Shown here: piece after piece, positions 4,125 to 55,642 of the stretch
How the letters are laid out: every line of letters begins with the position of its first letter
Numbering within the stretch: the stretch's first letter is position 1
NCBI GenBank assembly: GCA_002841375.1
Contig: PGZO01000008.1
Span: 62,001 to 126,000, forward strand
Direction of reading: 5' to 3'
Source: Firmicutes bacterium HGW-Firmicutes-7
GTDB taxonomy: Bacteria > Bacillota > Clostridia > Lachnospirales > Vallitaleaceae
Length of the DNA stretch: 64,000 nt
Made by a program: the position numbers and the translations under genes
The notes under the pieces: model-generated
Seen by the model: the letters and a program-made list of their open reading frames with translations, nothing else
What the model was told of the DNA's origin: nothing
Database searches by the model: none

Positions 4125-5006
4125 ATGAATAAGAAATGGTTACAGAAAACAGTTTTACTAAGTACGGTTATGGTGTATCTGCTCGGTTCAACCATCCAAG
4201 CAGATACACTCGGCACTGTTACTGCAAATGTATTAAACGTTCGTAGCAACCCATCCACTTCTTCACCGATCATTGCCAAAACCTATGCTGGCAATAAAGT
4301 TTCAATCTTAGCTAAAGAAGGGGATTGGTATAAAATTGAAGTCGAAGGTGCCCAAGTTGCATATGTTTCAAGTGACTATGTAAAAGAAGCTACTGCAGAG
4401 GTTACGCCACTACAAGCAGTTACTGCTACAACAAATTATGGTCGTGTCACTGTTCCAATCTTAAACCTTAGGGCTTCGAATTCTACATCAAGCGACATAA
4501 TCGGTAAGCTTTCTCAATACAATTCAGTAACGATCTTAAGTTCTGAAGGTGATTGGTATAAAGTGGAGGCGAATGACAAGACTGGCTATGTTTTCAATAC
4601 ATATATCGACACTACAACACCTTCTGCATCAACAAATGATGTAAGGTCACAAGTCGTTGCGTATGCAAAGCAATTTTTAGGAAATCCTTATGTATATGGC
4701 GGAAATAGTTTAACAAATGGAATAGATTGTTCTGCCTTTACGCAGCAGATTCTTAGAAAGTTTGGTTATTCAATTAGTAGAACATCTTATACACAAATTA
4801 ATAATGGTACCCGTATTTCAGCTAATGAGTTATTGCCAGGGGATTTAGTTTTCTATGGTTATTCAGGTGTAGTTTCTCACGTAGGAATGTATATAGGAGA
4901 TGGCAAAATAATTCATGCTAGTAGCCCATCAACTGGCATTTTAATTAGTGGTATGTATACACAAGGTAAGAAGCCATATATTGGTAGTGTTAGAATTATT
5001 CAATAA
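4125..5006 (+). CDS. SH3b-SH3b-NlpC/P60 cell-wall endopeptidase
   Basis: A secreted peptidoglycan hydrolase of 293 aa. Signal peptide about 1-26; two bacterial SH3 domains (about 30-87 and 100-157), each with the VLNVRSNPST / ILNLRASNST opening and a GDWYK motif; C-terminal NlpC/P60 domain (about 170-293). The catalytic Cys is in GIDCSAFTQQ and the catalytic His in VSHVGMYIGDG; the third polar residue is probably in KIIHASS. The domain cleaves D-gamma-Glu to diamino-acid links in stem peptides in known family members. SD AGGAGG lies 6-7 nt before the ATG. Monocistronic, closed by a hairpin terminator. Confidence 0.93.
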   Translation: MNKKWLQKTVLLSTVMVYLLGSTIQADTLGTVTANVLNVRSNPSTSSPIIAKTYAGNKVSILAKEGDWYKIEVEGAQVAYVSSDYVKEATAEVTPLQAVTATTNYGRVTVPILNLRASNSTSSDIIGKLSQYNSVTILSSEGDWYKVEANDKTGYVFNTYIDTTTPSASTNDVRSQVVAYAKQFLGNPYVYGGNSLTNGIDCSAFTQQILRKFGYSISRTSYTQINNGTRISANELLPGDLVFYGYSGVVSHVGMYIGDGKIIHASSPSTGILISGMYTQGKKPYIGSVRIIQ

Positions 5007-41189: not shown

Positions 41190-42089
41190 ATGCGTGAAAT
41201 GACATTAGGTCATAAAGTAAAGGAAGCTAGAATTGCCAAACAAATGACACAGAAGGAACTTGCTGGTGATTTTATCACAAGAAATATGCTCAGCCAAATT
41301 GAAAATGATAATGCAGCCCCTTCCATTAAAACGATTGAATACATTGCCTCAATCTTAGATAAACCAATCAGTTATTTTATGGACAGTGAACAAAGTGATC
41401 AAGGTTCCATTATTGAAGAATTATTAACTATATATGAAGATCATAATTATAATGAATGCATTATAAAAATCGAAAAAACCTTTGCAATAGAATCTGAATA
41501 TCATAATCATGATTTAATTAAAGATATTTATATCAACTGCTGTATAAAAGCTGGAATTATTTATAAAGATATGGGCAACTATGAAAACGCTCAAACAGTC
41601 TTAAAAAAAGTGCTTGTTTTTGAAAAGAATATGATTTTTGATTCAAATGTTATTTTATATACTGTATATAACTTATTGGCAGAAATAAATGGTTATTTAA
41701 AAGATAGCGAACTATCGAAAGAATATAATCATAAGGCAACTACAATTATCAATAAAATGCTTGCTTCAAGAACTGTCCAAAGCATTAGTATATCCCTAGT
41801 GGAGGGTAATTATGATGATGCGATTAGCAGAATTAATTCATTAGATATTGAAGAATTAGATCCCTATAACAAAGGTCGTTATTATATAATACTTGGTTCA
41901 GCCCACTATTATAAAAAAGCATATCTAACAGCAATTCCTTATTTAGAAAAGGCAATACCCTTTTACAATGATATGCCTAATAATGGTGTTCTTATTACAA
42001 TATATGAACAATTAAGCAAAAGCTATTCTCATATAGAAGAATATAAAAAAGCTTATCAATTTCTAGAATTAACTAAACTGAATAATTAA
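41190..42089 (+). CDS. XRE-family HTH regulator with TPR-like repeats
   Basis: A 299-aa protein. N-terminal HTH_3 domain (about 5-65: LGHKVKEARIAKQMTQKELAG, then TRNMLSQIENDNAAPSIKTIEYIASIL), followed by about five TPR-like helical pairs (about 75-299). This layout is that of RRNPP-like or RapA/PlcR-type sensors, where the TPR part binds a peptide or protein. No small peptide gene is visible next to it. SD GGAGGTGA is 5-9 nt before the ATG. Convergent with the sigma-54 activator gene, overlapping by 4 bp. Confidence 0.9.
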   Translation: MREMTLGHKVKEARIAKQMTQKELAGDFITRNMLSQIENDNAAPSIKTIEYIASILDKPISYFMDSEQSDQGSIIEELLTIYEDHNYNECIIKIEKTFAIESEYHNHDLIKDIYINCCIKAGIIYKDMGNYENAQTVLKKVLVFEKNMIFDSNVILYTVYNLLAEINGYLKDSELSKEYNHKATTIINKMLASRTVQSISISLVEGNYDDAISRINSLDIEELDPYNKGRYYIILGSAHYYKKAYLTAIPYLEKAIPFYNDMPNNGVLITIYEQLSKSYSHIEEYKKAYQFLELTKLNN

Positions 42090-44770
42090 ACTTTTTCTAT
42101 TTTCTGAGGTTCTGAATAAAAATACTTAATGATATAGCATATTTCATCATCTGTTACTTCTATAGAATATTTGTTGTTAATATGCTTAAAGTTTACTTTT
42201 ATGATATCATAAATAGCCTTATTTTCACGCAAATAAAGTTCCTTATCATTAAAATCAACTAATAGCTCCGCCTTAGTCAGCCGGCTGATTACATACGCTA
42301 GATGAAGGATTAGTCCTATGTAGCTATTATCACTTAATTCAATACATAACTTGTCCTTGACTGTTCTGATAAAATAATCAATCTCATGGAAGAGTTCTAT
42401 CCCATTTATATTTTCAATGTTTTCATCTAATATAAAGGGCATGTTGATAAGTGTATTTTTCAAATCAATGCTTTCTTGTAACTCATCAATTACCTTCATA
42501 TTTAAAACATCGTACATGCTGTATTGCTTGATATCCATATCAATAGGAAATGAAGATACAATAAAAAGAATCTCCATATCTTCTCTTATTTTATTAATTT
42601 TCTGTTTGAAATAATTTTTATCTAAACAATTGAGTACAATGATATCAAAAATATCTTTATTGAGCTTAAGATGATTGCTTAGAAAGCTTTTTAAGGCCAT
42701 TGAGCCCCCTTCTCCAGTTAAACAGGCTGTTATGATCGCTACTTTCTTTCGATCAAATCGCTCGACCTTTACATTTTTATACAATTCCATATATGAATTA
42801 ACACTTAGCACATCATTATATATATTATCAAGCTCTAGACCAACAGAAGCTTTTCTTGTTGCTTCTAATACGTGTAAGGTTGAAACAAGAGATATAGACT
42901 TCGCCGGAACACCTAATTCATTTTCAATCACTTCAGCAAAGGTAGTTAAAGAGCCCATATCAACCAATAGCAGAAAGCCTTTGGTGCTAAAGTTTTCTTT
43001 TGCTACCTTGATTAATTCCTCCAAAATAGTAACTGGATTTAATTCTAGTGGTGCATTGATCCCAATTGCATAATCCTCACCCAATAAGTTGTTAGCGACT
43101 TCAGCCATAGAGGTGGCAGTCGTTGCACCATGTGCTATGATAATCACTTTTACTTTATTATTGTTTAACTCTTTTAAATTGTTTTCTGGTAGTAAGAATA
43201 TTGTTAAATACGCTGCTTCATCCAATGGAATGGAATGCTTGATATGGTTCTCAATGATTGTTTTTACATTTAGTGCCACTTGAAACTCCTTTGGATAAAG
43301 TTCTTGAATTCTATCTAATTCAGGATTTACAATAGTCTGTCGATTACTAACTCTTTTAATCAATGTATCGATATGCAATGCAATTGCTGTATACATGTTA
43401 TGATTGAAATTCATTTTCAGCTCAGAATTAATGATCTGTACAACATCATCAATGCAATCCATTGTATCCTCATCAATAATTCTCAACAAGTTCTTTCTGC
43501 TCAATTCCTCAGATACTCCATTAATATGCTTTTCAAAGTATCTGGAGATATCTTTTTCCAATATACTTTCAATTGCTATTTCTGAAATTCCTTGAGACTT
43601 AAGCTTTTCCAGTCTTTCTTTTATAATAGCATAAATATTATTGTCCTCAATTGCAAATCTAAAATCATCGTCTTGAGCACTGCTTGAAAATTTGAAAAAT
43701 TCAATCTCTTCTCCGACCAAGCGATTCCAAATTACACGGTGCTCCTTCTCTTTATAGAGTCCATCTTTAATATATTTGGGGATATTTATGCTGACAATTC
43801 TAACATCACGTTTTATTTTAGTTAAAAAATCAGAATATGCCTTTGCACAAGTGAGCTGGATATCACTCTTTAATTGCCCTATGTTGTTTGGGCAATCATA
43901 AGACAAAAAGGCTCTAATCGTATTCAACGAAGCGTAGATCTCTCTGTCTATACGTATACTTTCAAGCTTAAAGAAATTCTTAATCAAGTATAGCCTTTCT
44001 TCTAATGTCCTGTCTTTGAGAGATGGGATTTTAATGACCATCGGTAATCTTCTTGTAAATGTCTTTAATAACGCAGATTTAGGATCCTCTGTAGTCGCAC
44101 AAAATATCTGCACATGAGATGTACGGGTTTCCGAATCTCCCATCCTCCTAAATAGATTGGTATCAAGAAATATAAATAGAGATTCCTGACCTTCTGGAGG
44201 CAATCTATGTACTTCATCAAGAAATAAAATTCCCCCATCGGCTTTCTCAATTAGTCCGTCTTTATCAGAATCAGCTCCTGTGAAAGCACCTTTTTTGACC
44301 CCAAAAAGCTGAGAAGTGAGAAGCTGTGGATTATTGCTATAGTCCGCACAATTAAAGGTTAAGAATGGTGAAGTTTCAACTTTCATCCCCATGTCAACAG
44401 CATAGTCATGCATTAAGGAAGCAAACATAGATTTTCCAACACCTGTTTCTCCTAATATCAAACAGTTCATACCATTTGGAGGGTATAGGATCGCGGTTTT
44501 TGCCTGATCAACGGCTGCCTTTAAACTAATACTGTTTTTAGACAACTCTTCCAGTTTTGAGAGCTTCGAAGATGATTTGTTATTGCTAACATAAAATAGT
44601 ACCGGACGTCCTCCAATTTTCCCAACTTTACCTTCCTTTACCAAGTTATTTAATTCATGGCTGACATTTGCTCTTGATAAACCAATCAAATCGGCTAATT
44701 CCTGTGTGTCAATACCATTTGGATTATTGATTTCAATCAATTTTTTATAGATCAAGTCTTTTCTTTGCAT
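42086..44770 (-). CDS. LevR/CelR-type sigma-54-dependent PTS operon activator
   Basis: An 894-aa regulator. N-terminal HTH (about 5-60, TQELADLIGLSRANVSHELNNLV); AAA+ sigma-54 activator domain (about 85-310) with Walker A GETGVGKS, the sigma-54-contacting GAFTGA loop and GGILFLDEVHRLP; first PRD (about 430-535); EIIA-Man-like domain (about 545-660, KVIIIAHGATTATSMAE with the phosphorylatable His); EIIB-like domain (about 690-790); second PRD (about 795-890, FHEIDYFIRTVKDKL). ATG 44770 has GGAGG 5 nt upstream. It is divergent from the PTS operon and should open its -24/-12 promoters according to PTS phosphorylation state. Confidence 0.95.
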   Translation of the reverse strand: MQRKDLIYKKLIEINNPNGIDTQELADLIGLSRANVSHELNNLVKEGKVGKIGGRPVLFYVSNNKSSSKLSKLEELSKNSISLKAAVDQAKTAILYPPNGMNCLILGETGVGKSMFASLMHDYAVDMGMKVETSPFLTFNCADYSNNPQLLTSQLFGVKKGAFTGADSDKDGLIEKADGGILFLDEVHRLPPEGQESLFIFLDTNLFRRMGDSETRTSHVQIFCATTEDPKSALLKTFTRRLPMVIKIPSLKDRTLEERLYLIKNFFKLESIRIDREIYASLNTIRAFLSYDCPNNIGQLKSDIQLTCAKAYSDFLTKIKRDVRIVSINIPKYIKDGLYKEKEHRVIWNRLVGEEIEFFKFSSSAQDDDFRFAIEDNNIYAIIKERLEKLKSQGISEIAIESILEKDISRYFEKHINGVSEELSRKNLLRIIDEDTMDCIDDVVQIINSELKMNFNHNMYTAIALHIDTLIKRVSNRQTIVNPELDRIQELYPKEFQVALNVKTIIENHIKHSIPLDEAAYLTIFLLPENNLKELNNNKVKVIIIAHGATTATSMAEVANNLLGEDYAIGINAPLELNPVTILEELIKVAKENFSTKGFLLLVDMGSLTTFAEVIENELGVPAKSISLVSTLHVLEATRKASVGLELDNIYNDVLSVNSYMELYKNVKVERFDRKKVAIITACLTGEGGSMALKSFLSNHLKLNKDIFDIIVLNCLDKNYFKQKINKIREDMEILFIVSSFPIDMDIKQYSMYDVLNMKVIDELQESIDLKNTLINMPFILDENIENINGIELFHEIDYFIRTVKDKLCIELSDNSYIGLILHLAYVISRLTKAELLVDFNDKELYLRENKAIYDIIKVNFKHINNKYSIEVTDDEICYIIKYFYSEPQKIEKV

Positions 44771-45030
44771 TTTTACCTCCAAAGATAAATGGGATAGGTT
44801 TAAAATTTTTATGAAAAAATACCAATCGTGCCCATTAAAATCAGCTTATTATGTAACATACTACCATATGGCATTTAACCATGTCAAACACAAGTATGAA
44901 ATCTAACCAAAATAAAAACTAATTTAAAACACTATGTGATTTCCGTAAAACACAAGGAAACATATATTGAGTTGATGCTGTTTAAGCTAAAAAATACTGC
45001 GTTAATAAGCATTAATTAAAACTCATGTGT

Positions 45031-45048
45031 TTGGCATCATATTTGCTA
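45031..45048 (+). promoter_or_regulatory. Sigma-54 promoter P1
   Basis: TTGGCATCATATTTGCTA: the GG (45033-45034) and GC (45045-45046) elements are 12 nt apart, the strict -24/-12 spacing. Start expected near 45058, directly before a hairpin and terminator unit rather than the PTS genes. Confidence 0.8.
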
Positions 45049-45057
45049 GTATTATTA

Positions 45058-45163
45058 TGAGGGTAAATACCTCTTTGTTCTATACTGTGTAGGAAAATAG
45101 AACCTTACTACTGGACATGAATAGAAAAAGCCGTATCAGGCCACTGATCGGATACGGTTTTTT
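45058..45163 (+). ncRNA. Candidate sigma-54-dependent small RNA or attenuated leader
   Basis: The unit from P1 to a terminator spans about 106 nt with no supported ORF. It has hairpin 1 GAGG/CCTC (45059-45073), hairpin 2 GTTCTAT/ATAGAAC (45077-45103), a single-stranded stretch, and a terminator. It matches no RNA family I recognise. It could act in trans, or be a conditional leader of the PTS mRNA if the terminator can be read through. Confidence 0.5.
45125..45163. terminator. Intrinsic terminator between P1 and P2
   Basis: Stem CCGTATC/GATACGG extended by AAAAA/TTTTT pairs, with an inner ATCAG/CTGAT alternative; T-run 45158-45163. It separates the P1 transcript from the PTS operon. Confidence 0.85.
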
Positions 45164-45215
45164 CACCTCCCAAATACATGCAATTTTTATATTAAACTAG
45201 TGCATTTGTTAGTGT

Positions 45216-45232
45216 TTGGCATGGTTATTGCT
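45216..45232 (+). promoter_or_regulatory. Sigma-54 promoter P2 of the PTS operon
   Basis: TTGGCATGGTTATTGCT: GG at 45218-45219 and GC at 45230-45231, exactly 12 nt apart and close to the TTGGCACG-N4-TTGCW consensus. Expected start near 45243, about 33 nt before the IIA ATG. The P1 and P2 regions share GTGTTTGGCAT and a similar TTGCTA downstream part, so one may be a duplicate. Confidence 0.88.
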
Positions 45233-45275
45233 AATAATTATAGATGTAAACAAAAAACTATTATGAGGTGACAAA

Positions 45276-45611
45276 ATGGAAGAAACGAATCCGATGGAAA
45301 TCGTCATTATGCAATTAATCGTCAATGCAGGCGCAGCAAAGAATCATGCATATGCTGCTCTTGCTAAAGCGAACGAAGGAAATTATATTGGGGCGGAAGA
45401 AGAGATGCAAAATGCTGAGAATGCGATAGCCGTTGCACATGAATCCCAAACGAGCTTGCTTACAAAAGAGGCCTCCGGAGAAAAGGTCGAAATATCAATG
45501 CTTTTTGTTCATGCACAAGATCATTTAATGACAGCTCTCACAGAAAAAAATCTAATTGAACAAATTATTGAATTAAGAAAAGTCGTCAACAAATTAATCA
45601 GTGCAAAGTAA
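45276..45611 (+). CDS. PTS lactose/cellobiose-family IIA component
   Basis: A 111-aa cytoplasmic phosphocarrier of the Lac family: three-helix bundle with the phosphorylated His in MLFVHAQDHLMTA (about residue 80) and the NAGAAKNHAYAAL / NAENAIAVAHESQT segments. It takes phosphate from HPr and passes it to IIB. First gene of the sigma-54 operon; SD GAGGTGA precedes the ATG. Confidence 0.95.
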   Translation: MEETNPMEIVIMQLIVNAGAAKNHAYAALAKANEGNYIGAEEEMQNAENAIAVAHESQTSLLTKEASGEKVEISMLFVHAQDHLMTALTEKNLIEQIIELRKVVNKLISAK

Positions 45612-45698
45612 AATAAGTAACAAGTAACCACATACCACTTCAAAATCTATTTAAATGTAATAGATGGTAGAACACACTATATAAAGGGAGGAATACAC

Positions 45699-46007
45699 AT
45701 GGTTAAAATAAGATTGTTTTGTGCAGCGGGCATGTCAACAAGTGTTTTGGTAAACAAAATGAGAAAGGTAGCAGAGGCAAAGGGGATCGAAGTAGAAATC
45801 GATGCACATCCTGAAGGTCAAATGACCAAATTACTTGATGGCGTAGACGTAGCATTGCTCGGACCACAGGTAGGCTATACGCTTTCTAAAGCAAAAAAAA
45901 TCTGTGGAGAAAAAAACATACCGATAGAAATCATCCCAATGATGGATTACGGTATGGTAAATGGAGAAAAGGTTCTGGATCTAGCTCTTAAGCTTGCTGG
46001 TAAATAA
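45699..46007 (+). CDS. PTS lactose/cellobiose-family IIB component
   Basis: A 102-aa cytoplasmic domain. The phosphorylatable Cys is in RLFCAAGMSTS at the N-terminus (P-loop-like), followed by VALLGPQVGYTL. It transfers phosphate from IIA to the incoming beta-glucoside bound by IIC. SD GGGAGG is 8 nt before the ATG. Confidence 0.95.
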   Translation: MVKIRLFCAAGMSTSVLVNKMRKVAEAKGIEVEIDAHPEGQMTKLLDGVDVALLGPQVGYTLSKAKKICGEKNIPIEIIPMMDYGMVNGEKVLDLALKLAGK

Positions 46008-46152
46008 AGAACGAGTACCCCACATTAAAAAGGTGACTTATCAGGGACACGATGTTTAATTAACAATGAGGCACTCACTACATATTATAACTTTTTCGAA
46101 AAACCAATGCAATCAAAATAAAATTTTTATAGCCTAAAAAGGAGATTTAATT

Positions 46153-47466
46153 ATGTCAACAAATTTCAAAGATACTATTATAAATAGCGTTATGAAGGCA
46201 GTCAACACAAAAGGTGTCTTAGCTTTAAAAGAAGGAATCCTTTATACCTTACCATTAACGATGGTAGGTTCCATATTTCTATTACTTGCACAGTTACCCA
46301 TTAAAGCACTTAACGATTGGTTTACAAGCATCTTTGGCCCTGCCTGGACTGAACCTTTATTTCAAGTCTATAATGCAACCTTTGCAATAATTGCATTAGT
46401 ATCTGTAATTACAATCGCCTATGCATATGCCAAAAACAGTGGTCATGACGGCTTAATGGCTGGTATTTTATCGCTTGTCGTATTTCTCATTACGACCAGT
46501 TCAAGTGTCACAGATGCTGCTAGTGGCGTTACCATTGGTGGTGTTATTCCTAGAGCCTGGACTGGTGGGCAAGGTATGGTAACAGCGATCATTATAGGTT
46601 TGATCGTTGGGGCTCTTTACTCAAAGCTTTTAGATAAAAACTTATCCATTAAAATGCCCGATGGTGTACCTGAAGGTGTTACAAAGCAGTTTGCTGCTTT
46701 AATTCCAGCTGCCATAATTTTTACTGGTGCTATGCTTGTTTATATATTCTTCAATGTTGCTTTAAAAACAACGTTTATTGAATGGATTTATATGGTTATT
46801 CAATATCCACTTCAAAACCTTACAGATTCATTGCCTGCCATCATGTTGATTTGTGCAATTGCACCTTTCTTATGGGTCTTTGGCGTACATGGTACATCCA
46901 TTGTAACTGGCGTCATGGATGGAATCTTTTTAGCTAATACAATGGCTAACCAAGCAATTATTGACAGTGGCTTAGCATTAACCCTTGAAAATGGCGCTAA
47001 AATTGTAACAAAACAATTTTTTGACAACTTTATCATTATGACTGGTACTGGTATTACCATTGGATTGGTTGTTGCAATGATTATTGCAGGAAAATCCGCT
47101 CAGTCTAAAGCCCTTGGTAAAATCGCAATATTCCCTGCAATCTTTAATATCAACGAACCCGTCACCTTTGGGTTCCCAATTGTTATGAATCCCCTTACCT
47201 TCGTGCCCTTTGTGCTGATTGGGCCTATTGCTGCATTGATTACCTATACAGCAATAGCGATAGGTTTTATGCCCCCCTTTGGCGGCGTTATGGTACCATG
47301 GACGACTCCACCAATCATCTCTGGTTTTATAGTCGCCGGCTGGCAAGGTGCTTTAGTCCAAATCATTCTCTTAGCAACGTCTGTATTGATTTACTTCCCA
47401 TTCTTTAAAAAACAAGATGCAATTCATTTAAAGAATGAGAATGAAGCGAGTGGCGAACTTATTTAG
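46153..47466 (+). CDS. PTS lactose/cellobiose-family IIC permease
   Basis: A 437-aa membrane permease with about 10 helices. Family marks: LYTLPLTMVGSIFLL near the N-terminus, FLWVFGVHGTSIVTGVMD in the middle, and NINEPVTFGFPIVMNPLTFVPF with the conserved NEP and GxP parts. Imports a beta-glucoside such as cellobiose as its 6-phosphate. A 145-bp gap from IIB contains no ORF. Confidence 0.95.
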   Translation: MSTNFKDTIINSVMKAVNTKGVLALKEGILYTLPLTMVGSIFLLLAQLPIKALNDWFTSIFGPAWTEPLFQVYNATFAIIALVSVITIAYAYAKNSGHDGLMAGILSLVVFLITTSSSVTDAASGVTIGGVIPRAWTGGQGMVTAIIIGLIVGALYSKLLDKNLSIKMPDGVPEGVTKQFAALIPAAIIFTGAMLVYIFFNVALKTTFIEWIYMVIQYPLQNLTDSLPAIMLICAIAPFLWVFGVHGTSIVTGVMDGIFLANTMANQAIIDSGLALTLENGAKIVTKQFFDNFIIMTGTGITIGLVVAMIIAGKSAQSKALGKIAIFPAIFNINEPVTFGFPIVMNPLTFVPFVLIGPIAALITYTAIAIGFMPPFGGVMVPWTTPPIISGFIVAGWQGALVQIILLATSVLIYFPFFKKQDAIHLKNENEASGELI

Positions 47467-47488
47467 CAACATAGATTCGTATAAAAAA

Positions 47489-47567
47489 AGCAACCTCAAT
47501 GAGGGTGAAATAATCACAATTTCTCCTTCATTGATGCTTACTAACAGATTAATAAAATTGTGAGGTT
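47489..47567 (+). promoter_or_regulatory. Structured IIC-GH1 intercistronic region
   Basis: TCACAATTT (47514-47522) is fully complementary to AAATTGTGA (47555-47563), and AACCTCA (47492-47498) to TGAGGTT (47561-47567). Both pairings would cover the GTGAGG SD of the GH1 gene. A competing stem (CAATGAGG with CCTTCATTG) is also possible. Translational control or mRNA processing is inferred. Confidence 0.4.
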
Positions 47568-47574
47568 ATAACAT

Positions 47575-48996
47575 ATGAACTATTCAAAACTAAAACCATT
47601 TAGTGATCATTTTTTATGGGGAGCTTCCACCTCTGCTTATCAATTTGAAGGCGCATGGAATGAAGATGGAAAAGGTCCGTCTGTCATGGATATGGGAAAT
47701 CACGCTAAAGATATCTCTGACTTTAAAGTAACAAGTAATCATTATCATAACTACAAAGAGGATATTGCATTGCTTGCTGAAATGGGCTTTAAAACCTATC
47801 GTTTTTCGATTGCATGGACTAGAATATTTCCCCACGGAACAGGAGAAATCAATCAAAAAGGAATAGATTTTTACAATAGTTTAATTAATGAACTATTAAA
47901 ATACAATATAGAACCCATTGTAACAGTTTACCATTTTGATCTACCTTATGCGTTGCATTTAAAAGGCGGCTGGTCCAACAAAGAGACCATAGATGCCTTT
48001 GTTAACTATGTAGATGTACTTTATTCTCATTTTAGCGATAGAGTTAAATATTGGTTAACGATTAATGAGCAAAATATGATGATTCTTCATGGCGCTGCAA
48101 TCGGGCTTGTCAATCCAAACTCAAAGAATCAAGAAAAGACGCTTTATCAACAAAACCACCATATGCTCCTTGCACAAGCAAGAGCGATTAAGCTCTTTCA
48201 TGAAATATGTCCAAGTGGAAAGATCGGGCCCGCGCCCAATATTACAGCTATCTACCCCGCCAGTTCAAAACCTGAAGATATTATTGCAGCTATGAACTTA
48301 ACGTCTATACGAAACTGGCTCTACCTTGATATGGCTGTATTTGGCACTTACAATGATATTGCTTGGAGTTACTTGGAAGAAAAAGGTTATACTCCAATAA
48401 TCGAAGAAGGAGACATGGAAATTTTAGGAGATGCGAAAGCCAAACCTGATTTTATTGCCTTCAACTACTATGCCTCCAGTACCGTATCAGCAAGCAAAAA
48501 TGATGCTACTGATAAAGGTACGATCGGAGATCAACAACTTTCTTTAGGTGAAATTGGTGTTTATCGTGGCGAATCCAATCCAAATCTAGAAAAAACACCT
48601 TTTGGATGGGAAATTGATCCAATTGGATTCCGCACGACTTTACGAGAACTCAATGATAGATATCATCTACCACTCATTGTGACCGAAAATGGTTTAGGTG
48701 AGTATGACAAGCTTGAAGCTGGTGACGTTGTTAATGATGATTATAGAATCAATTACTTACGTGACCATATTCAACAAGCTCAATTAGCTATCGGTGATGG
48801 TGTGCAACTATTTGGATATTGTCCTTGGTCTGCAATCGACCTTGTGAGCACTCATTCAGGCTGCAGCAAACGTTATGGCTTTGTATTTGTAAATCGAGAT
48901 GAGCACGACTTAAAGGATTTGAAACGTATAAAAAAGAAAAGCTTCCACTGGTATAAAAAAGTAATTGAAACAAATGGTAAGGATTTAAGTTCATAA
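47575..48996 (+). CDS. GH1 6-phospho-beta-glucosidase
   Basis: A 473-aa cytoplasmic (beta/alpha)8 glycosidase that would cleave cellobiose-6-phosphate type products of the PTS. Acid/base Glu in WLTINEQN (about residue 165), nucleophile Glu in LIVTENGLG (about 370), N-terminal FLWGASTSAYQFEGA. The C-terminal STHSGCSKRYGF holds the Ser, Lys and Tyr pattern that binds the 6-phosphate, which separates it from plain beta-glucosidases. Confidence 0.94.
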   Translation: MNYSKLKPFSDHFLWGASTSAYQFEGAWNEDGKGPSVMDMGNHAKDISDFKVTSNHYHNYKEDIALLAEMGFKTYRFSIAWTRIFPHGTGEINQKGIDFYNSLINELLKYNIEPIVTVYHFDLPYALHLKGGWSNKETIDAFVNYVDVLYSHFSDRVKYWLTINEQNMMILHGAAIGLVNPNSKNQEKTLYQQNHHMLLAQARAIKLFHEICPSGKIGPAPNITAIYPASSKPEDIIAAMNLTSIRNWLYLDMAVFGTYNDIAWSYLEEKGYTPIIEEGDMEILGDAKAKPDFIAFNYYASSTVSASKNDATDKGTIGDQQLSLGEIGVYRGESNPNLEKTPFGWEIDPIGFRTTLRELNDRYHLPLIVTENGLGEYDKLEAGDVVNDDYRINYLRDHIQQAQLAIGDGVQLFGYCPWSAIDLVSTHSGCSKRYGFVFVNRDEHDLKDLKRIKKKSFHWYKKVIETNGKDLSS

Positions 48997-49051
48997 GGTT
49001 AAATACCAATTCTCAAAAAAACAATACGCAACAATAAAGGAGAGATCAAAT

Positions 49052-49315
49052 TTGGTTACTCAAAGCATCGTCATTGAAAACAAATCAGGTCTTCATGCAA
49101 GACCAGCTAGTAATTTAGTAACTGCAGCTTCCAAGTTCAAGTCAGCAATTTTTATTAAAAAAGGCGAAAAATCCTTTATAGCTAAATCGATTTTAAGCGT
49201 TATGAGTGCGGGAATCAAGAGAGATACCGAAATTGAGCTCATCTGCGATGGTGAAGATGAATCAGATGCATTAAAAACATTAGTCAGCCTTATTGAATCA
49301 GGTTTAGGAGAGTAA
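49052..49315 (+). CDS. HPr family phosphocarrier protein
   Basis: An 87-aa protein. Active His in SGLHARPASNLV and the regulatory Ser region in AKSILSVMSAGI are both present, so it can take phosphate from enzyme I and may also be a target of HPr kinase. TTG start with AAGGAG 9 nt upstream. Being inside the sigma-54 operon, it is probably an operon-specific HPr in addition to a housekeeping copy elsewhere. Confidence 0.94.
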   Translation: MVTQSIVIENKSGLHARPASNLVTAASKFKSAIFIKKGEKSFIAKSILSVMSAGIKRDTEIELICDGEDESDALKTLVSLIESGLGE

Positions 49316-49351
49316 GTAGAATCATCCAAAGAAGGAAGGCGCTGAAATAGT

Positions 49352-50770
49352 ATGAAAATGGAATTTAATCAAGAGATGGCTTTAAAACAAAATCTTGTTA
49401 TTACCCAAGAGCTCCAACAAGCCCTTAAAATACTTCAGCTTCCCCTTCAAGACCTTCATCAGGAAATATATCAGGAGTATCAAGAAAACCCGCTACTAGA
49501 AGTGGCAGATATGTCTGATCAACAAGATGCCGACGGTTTAGACGAAGTCTTAACATGTGGTATTTCATATAAAGAGTTGATACGTCAATTCGAGGATGCC
49601 TCTTACACAAATATAAGCTACACATCAGAGCAAAAACAGGATGATCCTTATTGTTTTGTTTCACAAAGGATACGTCTCATTGACTATATATATGAACAAA
49701 TTCAGGATTTTCAGTTAGATAAAAGCTGGTCTACACTCTGTTATTTCTTAGCTGAAAACCTTGATGAACGTGGTTATTTTGATGAAAGCCTTGAGGACTT
49801 ATCTTTAGAAATTGGGTTAGAAAAAGCGCATTTAGAAAAAGCGCTATTCATTCTACAAACGCTCAAACCCGATGGCATTGGTGCTAGAAATCTTAAGGAA
49901 TGTCTTATCATACAACTCAAAAAGAAAAAAATAACTGATCACAATCTTTTTCGTATTATTGAAGACCACCTTGAATTTCTTGGTGACTTTAAACACAAGA
50001 AAATAGCTTCTGAAATGAATCTAGAATTAGAAACAATAGTGCGATATCACTCTATCATCAAATCCTTGGAGCCCTATCCATCAAGGGGCTTTTACACTGG
50101 TGAAGTTGATCAATACATCGCACCAGAAGCATACATACGGGAAATGAATGGACAATTTATCATTTTAATGAACGATAGATTTATACCTACCTTAAAAATC
50201 AATGCAATCTATAAAGAAATCCTTACTCAAAAAACCAATAAAGAAACGAACGACTACATAAAGGACAGATTGAAGCGCGCTCAAAACTTTATTAAGAACA
50301 TAGAAAATAGAAACAGAACCTTATATCGCGTAATAGAGGCTATTGTTGAACGACAGCAAAAATATCTCCAACTAGGGCATGAATACCTTAATCCTATGTT
50401 AATAAAGGATATCGCATTAGAACTTAGTTTACACGAATCTACTGTCAGTAGAGCCATTAAAGGAAAATACGTCTATACACCTCACCACTTAATTCTTATC
50501 AAAGATCTGTTTACAATAGGAATAGCTACTGACAACGCTAACATAACGTCTACAAATATAATTAAGAAAGCAATTGCTCACCTTATCAATGATGAGAATA
50601 CGTCAAAACCCTTGTCAGACCAAGACCTGAGTAATCTTTTAGAAAGTCAGAATATGCCTATTTCCAGAAGGACAGTAGCAAAATATCGCGAAGAGATGAG
50701 CATCTTAACTTCATCTAAAAGAAAGGCCAATGCTTCAATACAAAAAAATCAACAAACCATATGTAATTAG
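49352..50770 (+). CDS. rpoN: RNA polymerase sigma-54 factor
   Basis: A 472-aa alternative sigma factor. Region I is Gln/Leu-rich (MALKQNLVITQELQQALKILQLPLQDL); core-binding region about 95-290 (GARNLKECLIIQL); HTH about 345-375 (HESTVSRAIKGKYVYTP); RpoN box near the C-terminus (SRRTVAKYREEM), which reads the -24 GG element. It lies inside the operon that begins with a sigma-54 promoter and next to a sigma-54 activator, so it likely increases its own expression. Confidence 0.96.
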   Translation: MKMEFNQEMALKQNLVITQELQQALKILQLPLQDLHQEIYQEYQENPLLEVADMSDQQDADGLDEVLTCGISYKELIRQFEDASYTNISYTSEQKQDDPYCFVSQRIRLIDYIYEQIQDFQLDKSWSTLCYFLAENLDERGYFDESLEDLSLEIGLEKAHLEKALFILQTLKPDGIGARNLKECLIIQLKKKKITDHNLFRIIEDHLEFLGDFKHKKIASEMNLELETIVRYHSIIKSLEPYPSRGFYTGEVDQYIAPEAYIREMNGQFIILMNDRFIPTLKINAIYKEILTQKTNKETNDYIKDRLKRAQNFIKNIENRNRTLYRVIEAIVERQQKYLQLGHEYLNPMLIKDIALELSLHESTVSRAIKGKYVYTPHHLILIKDLFTIGIATDNANITSTNIIKKAIAHLINDENTSKPLSDQDLSNLLESQNMPISRRTVAKYREEMSILTSSKRKANASIQKNQQTICN

Positions 50771-50811
50771 GATATATATACAGATCAAGAAAATTAGAAC
50801 AGGAGATTATT

Positions 50812-52128
50812 ATGAAGAAGTTAAAAATCGTAACAATTGGTGGTGGCTCGAGCTACACACCAGAATTACTTGAAGGCTTTATTAAAAGATATCACGAACT
50901 ACCAATTACTGAGCTTTGGCTTGTGGATATTGAGGAAGGAAAAGAAAAGCTTGAAATCGTGGGTAGCCTTGCAAAAAGAATGGTAGAAAAATCTGGCTTA
51001 CCAATTCAAATATATACGACCTTAGATAGAAGAGAAGCACTTAAGAATGCAGATTTTGTAACAACCCAATTGAGAGTTGGTTTACTAGAGGCAAGAATTA
51101 AGGATGAACGTATCCCACTATCCCATGGTTATATAGGTCAAGAAACAAATGGTGCTGGAGGTCTATTCAAGGGACTTAGAACAATTCCAGTTATTCTTGA
51201 TATTGACAAAGACATGAGTCAACTCTGTCCAGATGCTTGGCTGATCAACTTTGCAAACCCATCTGGTATGGTTACTGAAGCACTCCTTAAATATGGCCTG
51301 AACAAAAAAATAGTGGGTCTATGTAATGTTCCTATCGGCATGGAAATGGGCATTGCAAAAGGCTTAGCCGTTGACTCAAGTCGTATTCACATTGATTTTG
51401 CCGGTCTTAATCATATGGTTTTTGGTCTAAAAGTTTTTCTAGACGGAGACAACATTACCAAAGAAGTCATAGAAAAGATTGGGTCAGGAGAAATTAATAT
51501 ATTTGTTAAAAATGTTAAGGATATTGCTTGGTCAAAAGAATTTATTGAAGGCTTAGGGGTTATCCCTTGTCCTTACCATCGCTATTACTTCCAAAAAGAA
51601 AAAATGCTTGAAGTAGAGCTTGAAGAATATAGTAAGGGCGAAACAAGAGGAGAGGTTGTAAAACGCTTAGAAGCAGATCTGTTTGATCTTTATAAGGATC
51701 CTCATTTGAATGTGAAACCACCTCAATTAGAAGAAAGAGGCGGAGCCTACTACAGTGATGCGGCATGCCGCCTGATCAGCTCAATTTACAACGGAAAAGG
51801 AGATATCCAGCCTGTCAATGTAAGAAATAATGGTGCTATCTCCTCCTTACCATCAGATGCTGCAGTAGAAGTGAGTTGTATGATTACAAAGGATGGTCCT
51901 GTTCCACTGACAATGGGTGAGCTTCCCAATGCTGTCAATGGTCTCGTCCAAGAAATAAAAGCCTTTGAAAGAGCAGCAGTTGACGCAGCAGTGACAGGAG
52001 ATTACAGTAAGGCTCTTGTCGCAATGACAATCAATCCACTTATTCAGTCCGAAAAAATGGCAAGGATATTATTGGATGAATTATTAGAAGCTCATAAAGA
52101 ATATTTGCCACAATTCAACCTAAAGTAG
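50812..52128 (+). CDS. GH4 6-phospho-beta-glucosidase
   Basis: A 438-aa NAD+- and Mn2+-dependent glycosidase that uses a redox-elimination mechanism. N-terminal Rossmann motif TIGGGSSYTPELLEGF; GLCNVPIGM holds the metal-binding Cys typical of the phospho-beta-glucosidase branch; FAGLNHMVFG holds the metal-binding His; NPSGMVTEAL is also conserved. Last gene of the operon, giving it two unrelated phospho-glucosidases (GH1 and GH4), perhaps for different aglycones. Confidence 0.94.
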   Translation: MKKLKIVTIGGGSSYTPELLEGFIKRYHELPITELWLVDIEEGKEKLEIVGSLAKRMVEKSGLPIQIYTTLDRREALKNADFVTTQLRVGLLEARIKDERIPLSHGYIGQETNGAGGLFKGLRTIPVILDIDKDMSQLCPDAWLINFANPSGMVTEALLKYGLNKKIVGLCNVPIGMEMGIAKGLAVDSSRIHIDFAGLNHMVFGLKVFLDGDNITKEVIEKIGSGEINIFVKNVKDIAWSKEFIEGLGVIPCPYHRYYFQKEKMLEVELEEYSKGETRGEVVKRLEADLFDLYKDPHLNVKPPQLEERGGAYYSDAACRLISSIYNGKGDIQPVNVRNNGAISSLPSDAAVEVSCMITKDGPVPLTMGELPNAVNGLVQEIKAFERAAVDAAVTGDYSKALVAMTINPLIQSEKMARILLDELLEAHKEYLPQFNLK

Positions 52129-52165
52129 TACCACAAATTGCTTAGGCATGCCACTGTTATCCTAT

Positions 52166-52225
52166 AATAGAGAGGGCAAATGAATTTTTCGGAAACTTCC
52201 CGATCATTCATTCACCCTCTCTATT
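52166..52225. terminator. Terminator at the end of the PTS operon
   Basis: 11-bp stem AATAGAGAGGG/CCCTCTCTATT with a further inner AATGAA/TTCATT pair. It lies between the convergent GH4 and HIT genes. Confidence 0.85.
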
Positions 52226-52258
52226 TGCTTTAAGTACACTTTTTTTGTGGACTTTCCC

Positions 52259-54907: not shown

Positions 54908-55642
54908 TTATGTTGTTTTATCACCATAAAAAGTAATGGCTTTGGTCGGACATTTCTCAATAGATTGTTGTATAGCTTCTATATATTTTCCCTTCACAGG
55001 CAAGGCCTTGACCTGTGCTTTGTTTTGATTCAACTCGTAAACATCTGGTAGCAATTTCACACAAATACCACATCCGATGCAGTATTCTTTTTTCACCTCA
55101 AGCCATTCTTTTTCATGGTCTTCAATTGATACAGTCATATTTTCCTTTTTTATCAATCTTCCTATGATATAAGCCATTAAAAAAATTGCAACAACTGTCA
55201 GTATCCATCTTACTGCCATAAATTGAACACCTAAAAATTTGGCTTCATTGGCAAGCATAGGTACTTTAATAACCGCCCAAGAACTTAAAACAATGACCAC
55301 ATTTGCAACACTTGCACCCTTTGAGAGCAGCATTTTGCTGATAGGAAATGCTGCATAGATAGGACCCGCAGAAATACTTCCAAGCATTAATGATAACATA
55401 TTACCCATAAATCCTGACTTTTCTCCAAATCGCTTTATAATAACTTCTTTAGGAATCCATGCTTCAATTATCACCGTTAAAATGAAAATTACCGGCAATA
55501 CTTCAAACATTTCTACTAAATAATAAACGCTATTACTCACAGCCTTTGATGCTTGCTGCGGATAAGTTGCAAATAAAGTAGCATAAACAACGCCAACGAT
55601 GATCAATAAACGGTTCTTTTTCATTATTTGTATCGCGCTCAC
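54908..55642 (-). CDS. ArsP/UPF0718-type permease half with C-terminal ferredoxin domain
   Basis: A 244-aa protein. Residues about 10-165 form five membrane helices of the PF03773 permease type, with the signature GSISAGPIYAAFPISKMLL. A cytoplasmic domain (about 180-240) has CIGCGICVKLLPDVYELN and a later KCPTKAI, i.e. four Cys for one [4Fe-4S] cluster. Its ATG overlaps the upstream permease half by 4 bp. Substrate is unknown; relatives export organoarsenicals or other ligands. The ferredoxin suggests redox-coupled or redox-gated function. Confidence 0.85.
   Translation of the reverse strand: MSAIQIMKKNRLLIIVGVVYATLFATYPQQASKAVSNSVYYLVEMFEVLPVIFILTVIIEAWIPKEVIIKRFGEKSGFMGNMLSLMLGSISAGPIYAAFPISKMLLSKGASVANVVIVLSSWAVIKVPMLANEAKFLGVQFMAVRWILTVVAIFLMAYIIGRLIKKENMTVSIEDHEKEWLEVKKEYCIGCGICVKLLPDVYELNQNKAQVKALPVKGKYIEAIQQSIEKCPTKAITFYGDKTT

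Follow-up and report, generated by a model that had tools for sequence, protein, structure and literature searches.

We examined a 64,000-nucleotide (nt) stretch of the genome of Firmicutes bacterium HGW-Firmicutes-7 (contig PGZO01000008.1, positions 62,001 to 126,000; hereafter the window). At 42086-52128 of the window, a gene for a CelR/LevR-type sigma-54 activator (celR, 42086-44782, minus strand) is divergent from a phosphotransferase system (PTS) operon of the order IIA-IIB-IIC-GH1-HPr-rpoN-GH4, which thus includes a gene for sigma-54 itself. Sigma-54 is usually the product of a single chromosomal gene that serves many activators. An earlier sequence-only reading had described this divergent arrangement and an activator with GAFTGA and PTS-regulated domains (PRDs), and coordinates and Pfam agree with it: every named gene sits where it had been placed, with Pfam matches above cut-off. 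In the loci read, genes were called mechanically as longest open reading frames (ORFs) and by BLAST against the proteins of the window and of its own genome, a procedure that small or divergent genes may escape. The features of the locus are as follows.

42086-44782, minus strand: CelR/LevR-type sigma-54 activator (CelR), 898 amino acids (Sigma54_activat 6.5e-43, two PRD stretches, EIIA-man)
44858-44887, minus strand: candidate sigma-A promoter for celR, TTGACA-N18-TAGTAT (TG ahead of the -10; 10/12 in the consensus scan, a score frequent by chance)
44926-44935, no strand assigned: weak candidate activator-binding site AAAACACTAT (single exact copy in the window)
45031-45047, plus strand: sigma-54 promoter P1, TTGGCATCATATTTGCT (exact -24/-12 match at 45032-45047, overlapping a 10/12 sigma-A-like site)
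45124-45164, plus strand: terminator-like hairpin between P1 and P2 (14-nt arms, 13-nt loop, T run)
45216-45232, plus strand: sigma-54 promoter P2, TTGGCATGGTTATTGCT (exact match at 45217-45232, 44 nt before IIA)
45276-45611, plus strand: PTS IIA, lactose/cellobiose family (PF02255 7e-33; 64% identical to G630)
45699-46007, plus strand: PTS IIB, lactose/cellobiose family (PF02302 2e-21; 69% identical to G630)
46153-47466, plus strand: PTS IIC, lactose/cellobiose family (PF02378; TIGR00410 above cut-off)
47575-48996, plus strand: GH1, likely a 6-phospho-beta-glucosidase (PF00232 8e-150)
49052-49315, plus strand: HPr (PF00381 6e-29; active site GLHARPAS)
49352-50770, plus strand: accessory rpoN (sigma-54), Clostridiaceae type by tree (AID, CBD and DBD; RpoN box RRTVAKYR)
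50812-52128, plus strand: GH4 glycosidase (PF02056, PF11975; 56% identical to the GH4 of the G630 neighbourhood)
52129-52258, plus strand: post-GH4 region with strong hairpin and T run, the likely operon end (fold -39.6 kcal/mol)

Intergenic gaps in the operon range from 36 to 145 nt, with 36 nt between HPr and rpoN and 41 nt between rpoN and GH4. The frame of the cel rpoN is open, and its product scores highly for all three sigma-54 domains (AID, CBD, DBD) and has an intact RpoN box. IIA, IIB and IIC stand together with a phospho-glycosidase, which is the composition of a Lac-family PTS. The IIC scores over the cut-off of the lacE model TIGR00410 and under that of the cellobiose equivalog TIGR00359, and the top NCBIfam matches of GH1 are 6-phospho-beta-glucosidases, all under cut-off. 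From the lactose/cellobiose-family IIC, GH1 and GH4, cellobiose or another beta-glucoside is the likely substrate, an assignment that is unproven because the cellobiose equivalog model scores below cut-off. In the operon HPr, AKSIL stands at what we take to be the Ser46 site. The hairpin after GH4 was missed by the terminator scan, and the next gene lies on the opposite strand.

P1 and P2 are the sole zero-mismatch matches to TGGCAYN5TTGCW in the 64 kb. The sequence-only reading had placed one exact -24/-12 promoter at the operon start; the exact match stands, but there are two sites. When up to one mismatch is allowed, the window holds 11 sites against 4.47 expected, a number reached by none of 100 shuffles. 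The two promoters are spaced 185 nt apart and share a 25-nt repeat with 80% identity; a pair of -24/-12 sites, spaced by 181 nt, is also present at the G553 activator locus. Between P1 and P2, the stretch 45058-45170 has a folding energy of -30 kcal/mol (z -2.6, equalled or bettered in 2 of 200 shuffles), and the terminator-like hairpin there suggests that RNA from P1 may largely stop before P2. This hairpin went unlisted in the terminator scan, where the loop limit of 8 excluded its 13-nt loop. Folding of the G553 inter-promoter stretch gave no such terminator-like hairpin. The P1 leader (45048-45171), about 105 nt long if counted from the inferred start site, ends in the hairpin; just past it, CACCTC is complementary to the GAGGTG that precedes the IIA start codon, which may be chance. 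This leader could yield a small RNA or a translation-silenced read-through message.

The activator consists, in order, of an N-terminal helix-turn-helix (HTH), an AAA+ domain with GAFTGA, a PRD, an EIIA-Man domain and another PRD. The HTH is weak in Pfam (HTH_Crp_2 under cut-off), the Walker A motif lies at residue 111 and GAFTGA at 165, and the ORF starts with TTG, with an ATG four codons downstream. The closest relative found is the activator of G630, a Clostridiaceae-type genome, and is 60% identical over residues 5-887; His470, His551 and His827 are also His in this relative, the sole comparison. LevR/CelR-like activators sense PTS phosphorylation, as one report describes (PMC3162934), and by analogy the cel activator is probably controlled via PTS phosphorylation of its PRD and EIIA histidines. 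The AAAACACTAT motif was picked by eye and post hoc, from comparison with the G630 intergenic sequence. We further note an inverted near-copy of the P2 region at 44876-44891, which is 94% complementary over 16 nt, points to celR and overlaps the TTGACA of the candidate sigma-A promoter.

The sequence-only reading had proposed a search for a second rpoN and a second ptsH, and both exist in the genome. The resident rpoN lies at C3, directly before the gene of a DhaQ-type activator, which combines HPr, PAS and sigma-54 interaction domains. The C3 genes match Dak2, EIIA-Man, HPr, PEP-utilising (EI) and Dak1 in Pfam, corresponding to dhaL-dhaM-HPr-EI-dhaK, and at this dha locus -24/-12 sites precede dhaL and dhaK. 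Thirty of the 32 -24/-12 sites from the genome scan were examined; five are intergenic, one is in the end of the EI gene before dhaK and 24 are inside ORFs. The genome contains four strong sigma-54 activator matches for its two sigma-54s, with six more weak matches that are AAA+ cross-matches, judging by scores. The cel and resident RpoNs are about 31% identical and have the same RpoN box and HTH core (HESTVSRA). Origin of the cel rpoN as a duplicate of the resident gene is ruled out by this low identity and by the separate tree positions given below.

These findings qualify the earlier description of the locus as self-contained. Activator, promoters, PTS, HPr and rpoN are indeed co-located, but the genome has a second rpoN and ten other HPr matches, and no EI gene is present at the cel locus. 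Because the locus is without EI, the cassette depends on the host PTS; because a resident second rpoN exists, the operon is not bound to use the RpoN that it encodes, and the locus may not be independent of the host sigma-54. Local phosphorylation of the activator by the operon HPr is not indicated: there are 11 HPr-domain matches in the genome (including the operon HPr and the HPr domain of the DhaQ-type activator), EI lies outside the locus, and HPr is a soluble carrier.

For comparison, 16 other CelR-type loci (8.3-19.5 kb each) were selected from a longer list. An HPr gene occurs in four of them, once with EI, and the operon HPr is therefore ordinary. By contrast, rpoN is found in none of the 16, whether by ORF reading or by tblastn with both RpoNs. 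The 19.5-kb activator neighbourhood of G630 holds IIA, IIB, IIC, GH1 and a GH4 and no rpoN; the G630 rpoN (L265) precedes, by eye, a CggR/gap-like row. Likewise, according to PMC6615313, 57 Clostridiales genomes have just one sigL each, and the CelR operons listed there do not include it.

The origin of the cel rpoN was addressed with a tree of 65 RpoNs, hand-chosen from 145 distinct ORFs (on the basis of a first tree, five rows with long branches were removed, and one row was added). The cel RpoN falls inside a 14-row Clostridiaceae-type SigL set (SH-aLRT 100), with G608, from another family, as its sister (support 88), and its end branch is 0.98 against a median of 0.33. The resident RpoN groups with its family in a set of seven rows (SH-aLRT 99). 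In pairwise comparison the cel RpoN is nearest to Clostridium SigL, with best matches of 43-45% identity; a search of 391 genomes of the class gave nothing above 45%, and neither did the 80 loci kept from 338 relatives in the named genomes, where a pattern search was used that can miss relatives. Of the first 31 named loci (L116-L146, mostly Clostridium), 30 have a gap-like ORF within 4 kb after rpoN, and in C. intestinale the two genes next to rpoN are CggR and GapA by Pfam.

Within the host's own family, RpoN is above cut-off in 12 of 22 genomes, three of which have two matches above 100 bits (G000, G002 and G006). In eight of these 12 genomes rpoN lies beside dhaQ-dha genes, and the G012 contig stops next to rpoN. 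Searches of the remaining 21 family genomes for the CelR-type activator gave only two long matches (27% and 25%) and one in pieces (G019). The LevR-like proteins L276, L277 and L278 (from G003, G015 and G019) have no exact GAFTGA, L276 having GNPTGA, and G003 and G019 are without RpoN over cut-off. The one same-genus genome compared has no CelR-type activator; its left flank aligns at 81% up to window position 42081 and is followed by other genes, while parts of the right flank match elsewhere. GC3 is 0.31 for the eight cel genes and 0.26 for the 47 other ORFs of the window that were compared (p 2e-5), non-cel ORFs under 120 amino acids and one doubtful ORF at 55628 being excluded. Judging by these sequence comparisons, the cel locus was horizontally acquired, apparently from a Clostridium-like bacterium, and we infer that operon and rpoN were transferred as one unit.

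The promoters differ between these groups as well. TTGGCATN5TTGCT occurs at three sites in the genome, namely P1, P2 and one inside an ORF. Loci of the family contain 22 TGGCAC sites, three TGGCAT sites (two near the extra rpoN of G002 and one inside the G002 dhaQ gene) and two other TGGC forms inside genes. The 16 CelR-type loci of other families contain 14 TGGCAT, one TGGCAC, one TGGCAA and one TGGCTT (in a gene), with none in two loci. On the scale of whole genomes, TTGGCAT and YTGGCAC occur in a ratio of 77:29 in 15 Clostridiaceae-type genomes versus 12:25 in ten rpoN-bearing family genomes (Fisher p 2e-5), and of 8:5 in seven family genomes without rpoN; these counts were hand-copied, omit G000 and G002, and use patterns that differ in their first base. 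The promoter class fits a matched sigma/promoter pair, and the cell has more than one RpoN, as do cells with cognate RpoN/activator pairs.

Several elements of this arrangement have counterparts in known systems. CelR/LevR sigma-54 PTS operons of Clostridium, Bacillus and Listeria share the activator architecture, lactose/cellobiose-family PTS, glycosidases and -24/-12 promoter; unlike the cel locus, the CelR targets listed in PMC6615313 have no sigL in the operon. Multiple rpoN copies are reported in about 5% of organisms (PMC12316311). Autoactivated rpoN operons and cognate RpoN/activator pairs are already known in alphaproteobacteria. The nifU2-rpoN operon of Rhodobacter capsulatus is autoactivated by its own sigma-54 together with an activator, and the start-up problem is met by a constitutive promoter before rpoN (PMC6925177). 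The likeness lies in an rpoN within an operon that has a sigma-54 promoter, in the cel case by sequence, and the differences are a single rpoN, a role in nitrogen fixation and the extra constitutive promoter. Cereibacter (Rhodobacter) sphaeroides likewise has several RpoNs per cell (RpoN1, 2 and 3), each studied one being paired with a cognate activator and regulon (PMC11999139). There the -11 base discriminates, whereas in the cel genome -11 is T in both promoter sets and the possible difference is the base after TGGCA. Proteobacterial rpoN clusters with PTS genes are a different arrangement (PMC2405797). A literature search by title and start of abstract, covering few subscription journals, found nothing on an rpoN inside a cellobiose operon and nothing on plasmid-borne rpoN/PTS cassettes.

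These observations suggest, with moderate confidence on our part, that the locus is an acquired beta-glucoside sigma-54 cassette in which a PTS-gated CelR drives P1 and P2 and feeds back through the accessory RpoN. CelR would probably be made from its own sigma-A promoter (candidate 44887-44858), and PTS phosphorylation of its PRD and EIIA histidines would gate its activity. When sugar drains phosphate from IIA and IIB, CelR would drive P1 and P2 with sigma-54 holoenzyme, and the operon would yield the transporter, two glycosidases, HPr and the accessory Clostridiaceae-type RpoN. This RpoN would raise the supply of matched sigma-54 and strengthen the response, a positive feedback. The first round would be primed by the resident RpoN of the dha locus, a weak internal sigma-A promoter or leakage, and the cassette would still rely on host EI. 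Positive feedback on rpoN is plausible because two exact -24/-12 sites precede a tight operon in which rpoN comes sixth; as in autoactivated operons, a sigma-54 promoter stands upstream of the operon that contains rpoN. We infer cellobiose induction, the feedback and a preference of the activator for the cel RpoN, and the whole switch may move between bacteria as one package.

Several points weigh against this interpretation. The cel RpoN is only 45% identical to its nearest relative and the activator 60%, and given the absence of rpoN from the 16 other CelR-type loci, operon and rpoN may have arrived separately. The long branch of the cel RpoN could mean decay. With an identical RpoN box and HTH core, and T at -11 in both promoter sets, the resident RpoN may serve the cel promoters. 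The contrast in promoter class is confounded by operon type, and the whole-genome patterns are asymmetrical, so that insulation of the cel sigma-54 is no more than a possibility given these confounders and the identical RpoN boxes. Several sigma-A-like sites lie within the operon, and the feedback, likely as it is, is a prediction from gene order and promoter sites.

The same points feed three rival explanations. If the resident RpoN of the dha locus drives the cel promoters, the cel rpoN would be a redundant hitch-hiker under relaxed selection that contributes at most extra sigma-54. The resident gene is present and intact, the two RpoNs share RpoN box and HTH core, and the end branch of the cel RpoN is long (0.98 against a median of 0.33); however, the cel rpoN frame is still open with three high-scoring sigma-54 domains, the gene is tightly placed between HPr and GH4, and similar rpoN/PTS packages on several plasmids (see below) suggest retention for a reason, and we regard a mere passenger as rather unlikely. 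Alternatively, the cel RpoN could be an additional sigma-54 for general use, with the dha, C74 and C63 activators among its partners, such that cellobiose lifts the whole regulon. This would suit a genome in which four strong activators share two sigma-54s with a conserved RpoN box, but the sites found next to the dha and C74 activators have TGGCAC, which prevails in the family, none was found beside C63, and the genome has no further TTGGCATN5TTGCT outside ORFs; we attach little probability to it.

Feedback would be lacking altogether if rpoN were expressed mainly from a constitutive internal promoter, as in part of the R. capsulatus arrangement, with its position in the operon incidental. 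The sequence-only reading had named a strong sigma-A promoter directly before rpoN as the observation that would speak against feedback, and the consensus scan shows none: a candidate there, TTGAAT-N18-TAGAAT at 49293-49322, scores 9/12 and ends 30 nt before the rpoN ATG. Same-strand 10/12 candidates lie further up at 46060, 46345 and 48326, in addition to the one at 45031 that overlaps P1. Such sites are only slightly above chance, however (61 in the region versus 47.6 +/- 7.1 in shuffles, which makes the scan uninformative), and folding of the 36-nt HPr-rpoN gap gives no strong hairpin. We consider a constitutively expressed rpoN quite improbable, and continue to favor the PTS-gated cassette with feedback.

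Packages of comparable content are found on plasmids. Among plasmid records, 232 match the cel RpoN and 225 match the L. paracasei RpoN, Rhizobium being the commonest genus in both sets; the collection contains no close relative of the cel RpoN, the best among the matches listed being 34.6%. In five of eight Bacillota plasmid records examined (two of L. paracasei and one each of L. sakei, L. curvatus and Aerococcus tenax), rpoN adjoins a sigma-54 activator and a mannose-family PTS. In the L. amylovorus record, which lists no activator there, the neighbours of rpoN are an IID fragment and a SIS gene; in the Priestia and E. faecalis records neither a PTS transporter nor an activator accompanies rpoN. 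Two of the records, that of Aerococcus with 592 kb and that of E. faecalis with 748 kb, are of a size that makes their plasmid nature questionable. The lactobacillus clusters (L. paracasei pLPCN-2 and p1CACC566, L. sakei p1_WK95, L. curvatus ZHA1) also unite activator, PTS, rpoN and sugar-catabolic genes, and the plasmids that carry them have been typed as mobilizable or conjugative. They differ from the cel locus in having a mannose-family rather than a lactose/cellobiose-family PTS and no HPr in the listed neighbourhood, for which gene tables are incomplete. The RpoN of p1CACC566 is only 31% identical to the cel RpoN, and the clusters are known as annotated records; our search found no functional study of them. 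On conjugative pLPCN-2 the order is activator, -24/-12, IIA-IIB-IIC-IID-GH-GH172-rpoN-ROK, which by sequence is the design of the cel locus built from only distantly related parts. Sigma-54 in L. casei has been noted solely in strain BL23 (PMC3162934), and RpoN and mannose-PTS genes are among the genes newly found in two L. rhamnosus isolates (PMC3954586). Both facts are consistent with an accessory rpoN in lactobacilli.

A broader and more tentative idea, which we think doubtful, is that of a transferable private sigma-54 channel, in which activator, matched RpoN and matched promoters move together, insulated and self-amplifying, and which would have been assembled repeatedly, in Clostridia and on lactobacillus plasmids. 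If this were true, an accessory rpoN would be a mobile part and not a housekeeping gene. By bringing its own sigma-54, an operon of this kind could enable a sigma-54-dependent pathway to function in a new host. The cel locus offers a compact natural system for two questions: whether one pair of RpoN and activator can be kept insulated from another, and whether feedback through rpoN turns sugar use into an all-or-none response.

Some further observations concern the locus and other rpoN genes. No known RNA family was found in the locus, the sole match up to E 5 being a chance-level SNORD48 on the other strand of GH4, and CcpA (cre) sites are not clearly enriched in the window (13 versus 7.35 +/- 3.1 expected; 7 of 100 shuffles have as many). 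The IIC-GH1 gap (47467-47574) contains a strong hairpin (-22 kcal/mol) that has no T run and might serve in RNA processing or stability. In G002, of the same genus, a second rpoN (L073 9542-10882) follows a response-regulator-type activator of its own at a distance of about 7 kb, and two nearby -24/-12 sites (L263 15280 and 18810) end in TTGCG, with G at -11, and not in TTGCT, possibly a third sigma-54/promoter pairing. In G671, genes for a histidine kinase and a sigma-54 activator are lined up with a second rpoN-like gene (L262 977-5663). An Angelakisella metagenome-assembled genome (L158 3274-12143) has rpoN, a sorbose-family PTS and a LevR-type activator within 9 kb, with an IIA-like gene behind a -24/-12 site, the sole such case among the 80 named RpoN loci. 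Finally, the second rpoN ORF of G006 (L079 4282-5574) has a -24/-12 site, TTGGCACGAATCTTGCT, at 4209, which starts 73 nt upstream and suggests autoregulation.

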